DNA of 64,000 bases. It comes from Bolinopsis microptera. Taxonomy: Eukaryota; Ctenophora; Tentaculata; Lobata; Bolinopsidae. The notes beneath the pieces are model-generated. The model worked only from the letters and a program-made list of their open reading frames with translations, made no database searches and was not told the origin of the DNA. The position numbers and the translations under genes were made by a program. Where the stretch lies: positions 496,001 through 560,000 of the forward strand of contig NC_087084.1 in NCBI RefSeq assembly GCF_026151205.1, given 5' to 3'. Below, one piece after another: positions 11,573 through 64,000 of this stretch (position 1 is its first letter; every line of letters begins with the position of its first letter).

Positions 11573-14500
11573 GTTGGGGAGGCTATAAAGATACCGCACA
11601 ATGACAAGTACTGTACAAAGTGCGCTGAGAAGGTCGCCATGGAAACTGGAAAACTCACCGAAAAATTAATTGAACTGAAATGTAAGTAAAAGTGAGACTT
11701 AGATATAAATATTGATTGATTGCTAGGTCAATAAAATGTGTGAAATATTGACTAATTAACCAGTAAAATGTGTGAAATATTGACTAATTAACCAGTAAAA
11801 TGTGTGAAATATTGACTAATTACCAGTAAAATGTGTGAAATATTGACTAATTAACCAATAAAATGTGTGAAATATTGACTAATTAACCAGTAAAATGTGT
11901 GAAATATTGACTAATTAACCAGTAAAATGTGTGAAATATTGACTAATTAACCAGTAAAATGTGTGAAATATTGACTAATTAACCAGTAAAATGTGTGAAA
12001 TATTGACTAATTAACCAGTAAAATGTGTGAAATATTGACTAATTAACCAGTAAAATGTGTGAAATATTGACTAATTTACCAGTGGAGGCGGACCGGCAGA
12101 AAGTACAATTTGATACGATGAAACGGAAGCTTGACAACACGTCAAAGGAACTCAAGACGGCCCAGGCTATGATAGAGACTCTCAAGGACCAAAACCACGA
12201 GAAAGCAAACAGAATAGCCAAGTTAGTCTTAAACTCTATAAACCTGCACGAACACGACAGTTTGTTCCACTACGAACAGCTGCACGAACACGACAGTTTG
12301 TTCCACTACAAACTTGCACGAACACGACAGTTTGTTCCACTACGAACAGCTGCACGAACACGACAGTTTGTTCCACTACAAACCTGCACGAACACGACAG
12401 TTTGTTACACTTCAAACCTGCACGAACACGACAGTTTGTTCCACTACGAACAGCTGCACGAACACGACAGTTTGTTCCACTACAAACTTGCACGAACACG
12501 ACAGTTTGTTCCACTACAAACCTGCACGAACACGACAGTTTGTTACACTTCAAACCTGCACGAACACGACAGTTTGTTCCACTACGAACAGCTGCACGAA
12601 CACGACAGTTTGTTCCACTACAAACTTGCACGAACACGACAGTTTGTTCCACTACAAACAGCTGCACGAACACGACAGTTTGTTCCACTAAAAACAGCTG
12701 CACGAACACGACAGTTTGTTCCACTACAAACTTGCATGAATACGACAGTTTGTTACACTACAAACCTGCACGAACACGACAGTTTGTTCCACTACAAACT
12801 TGCATGAATACGACAGTTTGTTACACTACAAACTTGCATGAATACGACAGTTTGTTACACTACAAACCTGCACGAACACGACAGTTTGTTCCACTACAAA
12901 CTTGCACGAACACGACAGTTTGTTCCACTACAATATTGCACGAACACGACAGTTTGTTCCACTACAAACCTGCACGAACACGACAGTTTGTTCCACTACA
13001 AACCTGCACGAACACGACAGTTTGTTCCACTACAAACCTGCACGAACACGACAGTTTGTTCCACTACAAACCTGCACGAACACGACAGTTTGTTCCACTA
13101 AAAACTTGCACGAACACGACAGTTTGTTCCACTACAAACCTGCACGAACACGACAGTTTGTTCCACTACAAACCTGCACGAACACGACAGTTTGTTCCAC
13201 TACAAACCTGCACGAACACGACAGTTTGTTACACTACAAACCTGCACGAACACGACAGTTTGTTCCACTACAAACTTGCACGAACACGACAGTTTGTTAC
13301 ACTACAAACCTGCACGAACACGACAGTTTGTTCCACTACAAACCTGCACGAACACGACAGTTTGTTCCACTACAAACCTGCACGAACACGACAGTTTGTT
13401 CCACTAAAAACTTGCACGAACACGACAGTTTGTTCCACTACAAACCTGCACCTCCTCACCTCAGGCTAGCACGTGAAGCTACAATAGGGCTGTGGAACAG
13501 GGAGAAGAAGAAGCTGCTCCAGTTTGCTGACGTAAGAGAGGCCTCCCTGGAGTACGAGCTCACTTCCCTAAAAGACTCTAGTCAGCAGTTTAAAGACAGG
13601 GCACTGGACAGAATAAAGTTCCTGCACGATCAGGTCTACCAGTTAAAACTGAGACTCAACTTACAAAGCTCTGATAATCACTTTAACAAAGTTCTGGACG
13701 CTGCTGAAAAGAAGCTGCAGTCAACTAAACAGGTACACTGGTATATTGTGAGATAAGAGACCTTTCAAGAGTGTCAGGGTTTATCTCACTCTCTTTCTAA
13801 TTTTAAGCATTGTTCATTGCACATTTAACTCATCGATGATGTCCAGAAATTTCATAAATTTATGATTGAGAGAGTTTAGCTGTTATCTAAGGCTCTAAGG
13901 GCACTCTAATACCTTATTCTAAAGTTCTAACTCTAATATTTTAGTATTACAAACAGGAGCTGAACACCCAAAAAGAAGAGTTCTTCAAATTCCGGAAGAA
14001 CATGGTCGGAATGTTATCTGGATTCCACAAGGACTTTGTGTGAGTTACTATATTATATATATACTACTTGTGTGAGTAGTTGTTGATTCCAAAACATAAG
14101 GTTTTGTGAATTTTTGATATAATGGGTATAGATAATTATGAAACAAGCGAAACACTTGAAATTTAATGCTCCTGTTTTCCAATTCAGCATTAACGGCTCG
14201 TTAACTAACTAAATAATTAATTAATTAACTAACTAACTAACTAACTAATTAATTAACTAACTAACTAACTAACTAACTAACTAACTAACTAACTAACTAA
14301 CTAATTAATTAATTAATTAATTAACTTGTCAGATTGTTAACTAATTAATTAATTAATTAATTAATTAATTTGTCAGATTGTTGACGGACCAGGTAGACCC
14401 ACAGACCTACGAAGCAAATGCTGAGTTCTTCGACCACGCAGAAAACTTTGATAGAATGCTAGGAGATCTGCACAAAGCGGCTTTAACAGATAACCTCAAT

Positions 14501-63600: not shown

Positions 63601-64000
63601 AGGGATGTGTTTACTATACGAGCAGGTCCAGGGAGGCTAGTGCCCACCCTGCCTGGAGGATGGTATCACTGGCGTACTTAGCTAGAATAACCTGGGGGAG
63701 GGATGTGTTTACTATACGAGCAGGTCCAGGGAGGCTAGTGCCCACCCTGCCTGGAGGATGGTATCACTGGCGTACTTAGCTAGAATAACCTGGGGGAGGG
63801 ATGTGTTTACTATACGAGCAGGTCCAGGGAGGCTAGTGCCCACCCTGCCTGGAGGATGGTATCACTGGCGTACTTAGCTAGAATAACCTGGGGGAGGGAT
63901 GTGTTTACTATACGAGCAGGTCCAGGGAGGCTAGTGCCCACCCTGCCTGGAGGATGGTATCACTGGCGTACTTAGCTAGAATAACCTGGGGGAGGGATGT
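60554..64000 (-). CDS. VPS13B: VPS13B, C-terminal eight exons (5' part beyond window)
   Basis: Exons 5' to 3': 63397-63256, 63007-62936, 62643-62565, 62283-62154, 62033-61816, 61317-61213, 60995-60895, 60720-60554. Phases chain and sum to 337 codons plus TGA. Diagnostic segments are VRDLVFLPYEG, GLTRGPTAFVSG, SVTNLAVSISRNMDRMSLDE, LHLLSAVAGLVHQPIQ and LVGMVTKPLGGAAELV, which match VPS13B rather than VPS13A/C/D. VPS13B is a very large bridge-like lipid transfer protein at the Golgi and endosomes; human loss causes Cohen syndrome. The segment here covers the ATG2-C-like amphipathic region (with repeated Gly-rich helices) and the PH-like C-terminal domain (about residues 230-310), which is more diverged. 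The end LLNNLLSTK is set by a stop made at a tandem-duplication junction. Confidence 0.88.
61334..61815 (-). repeat. 41-bp CCAAT/CACGTG array starting at a VPS13B donor, about 11 copies
   Basis: The unit has ACCACGTGACACAAACC and CCAATCAGAGCACAGTAT. The minus-strand intron begins GTATACTGTGCTCTGATTGG, so the donor of the 62033-61816 exon is the first base of the array and several units repeat GTATACTGTG. Confidence 0.92.
62395..62564 (-). repeat. Tandem TGACGTCA (CRE) repeat beside a VPS13B donor
   Basis: Six exact TGACGTCA palindromes (62402, 62423, 62444, 62465, 62486, 62549) and two one-base variants, 21 bp apart. The array begins 7 bases after the donor of the 62643-62565 exon. Confidence 0.9.
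63008..63170 (-). repeat. CCAAT/CACGTG array before a VPS13B acceptor
   Basis: Four imperfect copies with CCAATCAGAGCACTGTA and CACGTGACA, beginning directly upstream of the acceptor of the 63007-62936 exon. Confidence 0.85.
63324..64000 (-). repeat. VPS13B: 98-bp array of a VPS13B 3' splice site plus exon start, at least seven copies
   Basis: Starts at 63326, 63424, 63522 and so on, exactly 98 bp apart and still running at the window end. Each unit holds CCCTCCCCCAG and then GTTATTCTAGCTAAGTACG, that is, the acceptor and the first 72-74 bases of the 63397-63256 exon, followed by 24 bases of intron-like sequence. Confidence 0.95.

Follow-up and report, generated by a model that had tools for sequence, protein, structure and literature searches.

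Tandem arrays at the splice junctions of three neighbouring ctenophore genes probably reflect random duplication filtered by gene-structure tolerance

An earlier note on a 64-kb window of the genome of the lobate ctenophore Bolinopsis microptera had claimed that the edges of tandem arrays lie at splice sites and stop codons in all three genes, and the locus raises the question of whether repeat growth starts at exon ends, or whether arrays arise at random and are sorted by what gene structure tolerates. We analysed the window (positions 496001-560000 of its contig) together with 80 kb from beyond it, giving a 144-kb stretch between 0.5 and 0.64 Mb of a 16.35-Mb contig in a single assembly (264,652,675 bases in 232 contigs); for a published assembly of the species, the accessible part of the report describes 13 chromosome-scale scaffolds (PMC10232365). 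Arrays were called by Tandem Repeats Finder at a score of at least 50, and exon boundaries were placed by spliced models against RefSeq and Mnemiopsis proteins. The resulting set of 51 introns comprises 14 of gene A, 10 of gene D, and 27 of VPS13B, and all three genes are neighbours. Our data suggest that the layout is probably random duplication filtered by the tolerance of gene structure, and not growth from exon ends.

Gene A (11573..20212, forward strand) is RefSeq LOC134825190 and has 15 exons and 14 introns in the window, all 14 of the GT-AG type, with its first exons upstream of the window and its stop codon TAA at 20210-20212. The model agrees with the Bolinopsis microptera protein RefSeq P0003 in a partial match of 100% identity, and exon by exon with P0002 from Mnemiopsis, an ortholog with 82% identity across the whole query. 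Its C-terminus KYCAVM (20192-20212), which we take to be a CaaX-like motif, is identical to the last six residues of P0002. Within exon 14691-14797, the frame shifts relative to P0002, and P0003 stops soon after (395 residues versus 734); this change could be either an assembly indel or a real allele. An acceptor at 15318 for this exon was dropped, as P0003 and P0002 give 15313 and a frameshift within the exon. Gene D (23567..48004, reverse strand, 11 exons and 10 introns used) is the RefSeq 'serine/arginine repetitive matrix protein 1-like' P0006 with a C-terminal Death domain. Its protein is identical to P0006 over the first 660 residues, and the Mnemiopsis ortholog P0007 extends into the Death domain, which the window encodes as well. 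A GCT-rich coding repeat at 24258-24325 is out of frame relative to P0007, and P0006 stops just past this repeat, before the Death domain.

The last eight exons of VPS13B lie at 60554..63397 on the reverse strand, and the gene runs on beyond the window. Among solved structures, VPS13A was the best match of the region, and the Mnemiopsis protein P0008 covers 95% of the searched region at 69% identity. For 25 of the 27 VPS13B introns, the boundaries are the best GT-AG pair in the alignment to P0008 around tblastn anchors, and the remaining two (61213/60995 and 60895/60720), for which this alignment gave no usable pair, were taken from another gene model of this analysis. The predictions of a home-made gene finder trained on the window were too many or too few and were used solely to propose exons; one of them, the VPS13B exon 67640-67563, was dropped, as Mnemiopsis VPS13B joins 78991 to 63397 directly. 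A Pfam search (E 0.001) found no family in the gene A and VPS13B C-terminal models, and Rfam and tRNA scans of the window returned nothing. Outside the gene models, the window holds a LINE-like element at 106-3211, with endonuclease- and reverse transcriptase-like reading frames that were named by eye, a 153-bp run of C (6092-6244), and a 697-bp perfect AG repeat (50238-50934). A large inverted repeat at 8079-11538, with arms at 8520-9018 and 10598-11096 (499 nt, 100%) and at 8079-8551 and 11066-11538 (473 nt, 97%), stops 34 bp before the gene A exon at 11573, and by its sequence it looks like a foldback element.

Of the 102 splice sites, 14 (seven donors, seven acceptors) are embedded in an array of units that carry copies of the junction. 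The periods of these ladders range from 15 to 128 bp, the sequences of units and sites differ among the 14, and in 13 of them it is the exon of their own gene that is copied. On the forward strand, gene A carries an acceptor ladder at 11732..12083 (32 bp x 11) that ends 1 nt inside the exon, an array at 14201..14382 whose last, 44-bp unit (2 copies) holds the acceptor and 6 nt of exon, and donor ladders at 16514..16643 (27 bp x 4.8, 4 nt of exon per unit) and 19005..19153 (42 bp x 3.2, 17 nt of exon per unit). On the reverse strand, the acceptor ladder at 25735..26454 (unit about 128 bp) repeats the acceptor together with 75 nt of exon, of which P0006 holds one, exon-proximal copy; the donor ladder at 43069..47520 (28 bp x 159) repeats 19 nt of exon and the donor; and the acceptor ladder that starts at 63325, leaves the window at 64000, and continues to window coordinate 66259 (98 bp, 29.9 copies in all) repeats 73 nt of exon. 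The VPS13B intron 63398-78990 has an acceptor ladder at one end and a donor ladder at the other, and beyond the window a further ladder at 116190-126268 (82 bp x 123) includes 35 nt of exon. The claim that in several arrays each unit repeats the splice site is borne out by near-copies with an intact GT or AG, of which there are 159 at 43069-47520, 10 at 11732-12083, 5 at 16514-16643, and 3 at 19005-19153; the 60 near-copies for 30 units at 63325-66259 are inflated by a second similar site per unit. GT or AG is kept in every near-copy found across the 14 ladders. A fifteenth array, the donor ladder at 14798..14897 (31 bp x 3.2, forward strand), does not span its junction but begins exactly at the splice site, and P0003 uses its first copy. 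At 14798, 47501, and 25809, it is the exon-proximal copy that is joined in the RefSeq models, and a single copy per junction accommodates the RefSeq and Mnemiopsis proteins.

Other arrays come close to a boundary from the intron side. In gene A, an array at 12236..13451 (34 bp x 35, forward strand) fills intron 12222-13464, from 14 bp off the donor to 13 bp off the acceptor. On the reverse strand, arrays at 26837..35900 (32 bp x 283), 39063..39482 (21 bp x 20), and 41355..41479 (32 bp x 3.9) have their edges 7 bp off acceptor 26830, 3 bp off donor 39485, and 10 bp off an acceptor, respectively; in VPS13B, also on the reverse strand, the array at 61338..61813 (41 bp x 11.6) lies 2 bp off the donor and 20 bp off the acceptor, the two arrays at 62295..62556 (37 bp x 2 and 42 bp x 4) lie 5 bp off the acceptor and 8 bp off the donor, and the one at 63021..63150 (41 bp x 3.2) lies 13 bp off the acceptor. 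Two arrays are associated with stop codons, one that begins at the stop codon of gene A (20210..20994, 31 bp x 25, forward strand), and one that covers the end of the VPS13B coding sequence including its stop codon (59012..60661, 97 bp x 17, reverse strand). Both had been named correctly, but as a claim about all genes this holds for only two of the three, as Tandem Repeats Finder gave no array beside the gene D stop codon at 23567.

Against spliced models and reference proteins, 13 of the 15 boundaries listed in the earlier note were recovered, namely the two stop-codon boundaries, all five 3' sites (12082, about 26830, 25809, 63397, and 63008), and six of the eight 5' sites (14798, 16518, 19022, 39485, 61815, and 62564). 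The position 47521, listed as a donor, is off by 20 bp; the true donor, at 47501, is still inside the array, which extends over 19 nt of the exon. The position 36881 could not be upheld as a splice site, since it is absent from P0006 and tblastn with P0007 gave no match there among the matches listed; it may belong to an unannotated isoform.

The density of arrays in these introns is high. They occupy 64,426 of 106,351 intron bases (60.6%; 51 introns, three genes), in contrast to 9.4% of coding bases with the junction-spanning parts counted, and to 12, 36, and 45% of the three intergenic parts of the window. Twenty 10-kb random stretches of the same genome contain 10.8% array on average (range 0 to 67%), and for Hormiphora the available part of the genome report states that Tandem Repeats Finder marked 13% of the genome as repeat (PMC8527503). 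As the random sample includes few multi-exon host genes (XPF, WDR60), whose introns enter none of the counts, all junction counts refer to the three genes in 144 kb. Arrays are present in 38 of the 51 introns and absent from 13, and 17 of the 38 consist of more than 80% array. Together with one unit per array, the non-array remainder has a median of 167 bp, compared with 212 bp for array-free introns (p=0.64), which is as expected if the arrays are duplications inside ordinary introns; in 13 of the 38, the remainder falls below 94 bp, the length of the shortest intron without arrays.

Is the layout then non-random? We compared the 76 splice sites of the 38 array-bearing introns with 4,000 simulations in which arrays were placed uniformly per intron and the outermost array was allowed to enter the exon by less than one unit (null B), and with a null in which arrays were kept inside introns, so that spanning is impossible (null A). 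The claim of non-randomness stood only in part. Spanning of junctions does not exceed null B, as 14 spanning sites were observed and 13.2 expected (p=0.44), whereas edges at 0-15 bp inside the intron are in excess (19 versus 8.5, p=0.0005), as are sites that are spanned or have an edge within 15 bp (33 versus 21.7, p=0.0005); within 10 bp, the numbers are 25 versus 19.1 (p=0.03), and for edges at 0-3 bp they are 5 versus 2.2 (p=0.06). The 0-15 bp excess persists (p 0.0002 to 0.002) when only periods of at least 7, at least three copies, or introns with a remainder of at least 80 bp (periods of at least 7) are considered, and in the same restricted sets the spanning excess is non-significant (p 0.09 to 0.34). 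With 1,000 simulations for each gene alone, spanning or an edge within 15 bp gave p=0.003 for VPS13B, 0.07 for gene A, and 0.18 for gene D. Under null A, however, the 0-15 bp count is ordinary (19 versus 17.2, p=0.30), and only with the spanning sites included is the expectation exceeded (33 versus 17.2, p=0.0002). The depth of exon captured by the 14 ladders shows a uniform distribution along the unit (mean 0.41, KS p=0.43), and the junction is therefore not itself the array edge. Non-spanning edges within 40 bp have a median distance of 11 bp from donors (n=17) and of 20 bp from acceptors (n=14; p=0.035), an asymmetry that weakens with wider limits (p=0.09 and 0.14).

The effect of a filter can be seen in coding sequence. 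All six merged arrays that lie wholly in coding sequence have a period divisible by three, one of them being an array in gene D (24860..24979, 27 bp x 4.4, reverse strand) that adds nine residues per unit in frame. Without merging, this holds for eight of nine rows (p=0.001), and the exception belongs to the repeat in which assembly and Mnemiopsis differ in frame. Of the junction-spanning arrays, only 5 of 14 have such a period, and this contrast is what selection would leave behind if duplication itself is blind. The two proposals that redundant copies are tolerated and that selection clears coding sequence thus gained support, from the multiple-of-three rule and from a spanning frequency and depth that equal random placement. 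The spanning arrays can be explained without growth from exon ends, which survives as one reading of the 0-15 bp edge excess.

We therefore propose that short tandem duplications would arise and expand freely along the stretch, presumably by slippage or unequal exchange. In coding sequence, only in-frame units would survive. A unit that happens to straddle a splice junction would produce a ladder of identical splice sites, and if the exon-proximal copy is the one used in transcripts, as its joining in the RefSeq models suggests, the mRNA would remain unchanged, and the array could survive and grow into the intron at any period. Arrays born inside introns would come to fill most of the intron, and beyond the stop codon arrays would have equal freedom. 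As arrays fill introns and little but the splice signal is left outside them, their edges would come to adjoin the junctions; perhaps it is this squeezing of the non-array remainder onto the splice signals that produces the excess of edges at 0-15 bp, and seeding at junctions is another possible source of this excess.

The edge excess, and the higher combined count of spanned or nearly reached sites, would also be expected if splice junctions were where repeat growth begins, perhaps through breaks or R-loops that accompany transcription and splicing; the layout would then be a rule of origin. The arrays that start exactly at donor 14798 and exactly at stop codon 20210 fit this as well. We nevertheless consider such an origin rather unlikely, since the number of spanned sites is as expected, edges at 0-3 bp exceed the expected number only slightly (5 versus 2.2, p=0.06), the captured depth is uniform, and the 0-15 bp count is ordinary once arrays are confined to introns; arrays at stop codons or within coding sequence would also be left unexplained by splicing. 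Useful redundancy, with spare sites protecting splicing or tuning its speed, could explain why GT or AG is intact in every near-copy, but units of the long arrays are 94-99% alike along their whole length, so that intact sites follow from homogenisation, and the number of ladders is at chance level, which makes this explanation highly improbable.

A further explanation would be that the arrays derive from dispersed introner-like elements that carry splice sites, were inserted as or beside introns, and were then amplified. A 41-bp CCAAT/CACGTG element, whose core (at most two substitutions) has 29 matches in the 144-kb stretch (24 sense and 5 antisense) and 2 in the 200 kb of random stretches, points in this direction, as all 29 matches are in introns and six are within 13 bp of a splice site; its sites include 61338-61813, 63021-63150, 36773-36880, and 38709-38802. 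Many of these matches are copies within the same arrays, however, and are not independent, and such an origin of the arrays is very unlikely, since the 14 ladders have different units and sites and 13 of them copy the exon of their own gene. Judged by its sequence, the 41-bp element is the building block of some arrays near junctions, but not of the 14 ladders as a class. There is also a dispersed 32-bp element with the core GGTAACACTACCATATAAGG, which has 15 matches in the 144-kb stretch (11 in introns; sites at 41355-41479, 47652-47772, and 48074-48198) and none in the 200 kb of random stretches. The available part of the published work on ctenophore chromatin-loop anchors gave no support for a link of the arrays to such anchors (PMC12221973).

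The coding frame rule shows the selective filter directly, and the ladders make it possible to study, in a natural setting, the spliceosome's choice among dozens of identical splice sites and the lengthening of introns in which no transposon is involved. A much wider idea is that intron growth in lobate ctenophores generally proceeds outward from the introns' own splice junctions, with splice sites as hot spots of minisatellite birth, with ladders of interchangeable sites, tens to hundreds in each, making up a large share of splice sites genome-wide, and with intron length evolving mainly in this way. We regard this as quite unlikely, but if junctions were minisatellite birthplaces genome-wide, intron growth would be directly testable in Bolinopsis microptera.

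Introner elements are repeated sequences that contain splice sites, and in this they resemble the ladders. The ladder units, in contrast, differ from gene to gene and hold each gene's own exon, and the 14 ladders, with their different periods and site sequences, are not one element family at many unrelated junctions. In the ctenophore literature, no title or abstract among the open-licence papers searched concerned arrays at splice junctions. As a rule, the layout is at most shown for three genes in one 144-kb stretch, and it is not unprecedented, as exon-boundary minisatellites are known in some genes of amphioxus and human; in the three ctenophore genes they affect 14 of 102 splice sites. 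The following comparisons refer to the accessible parts of the reports. In potato RdRp, duplication of an intron–exon boundary created an intron (PMC4974935); the supply of a second splice site by a duplication over the boundary is shared, whereas a new intron is shown for potato. In human segmental duplications, internal tandem repeats with a mean unit of 30 bp occur at exon–intron boundaries (PMC2812944), likewise by minisatellite expansion, but in those recent paralogs the repeats made new introns and alternative transcripts, whereas the Bolinopsis genes are old single genes whose models give no sign of a changed protein. The amphioxus 'mirages' are tandem units of 10 to 160 bp across 5' and 3' exon–intron boundaries, for which length and somatic instability, as well as RT-PCR of splicing, were reported, with regular splicing undisturbed (PMC3087553). 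Their units contain the boundary and their host is a conserved animal gene, as in Bolinopsis with its seven donors and seven acceptors and units of 15 to 128 bp; in Bolinopsis, many junctions of the same genes are involved, the copy number reaches 159, and one intron is laddered at each end. The Bolinopsis ladders thus fit the kind described as 'mirages' in amphioxus, and are larger in scale.
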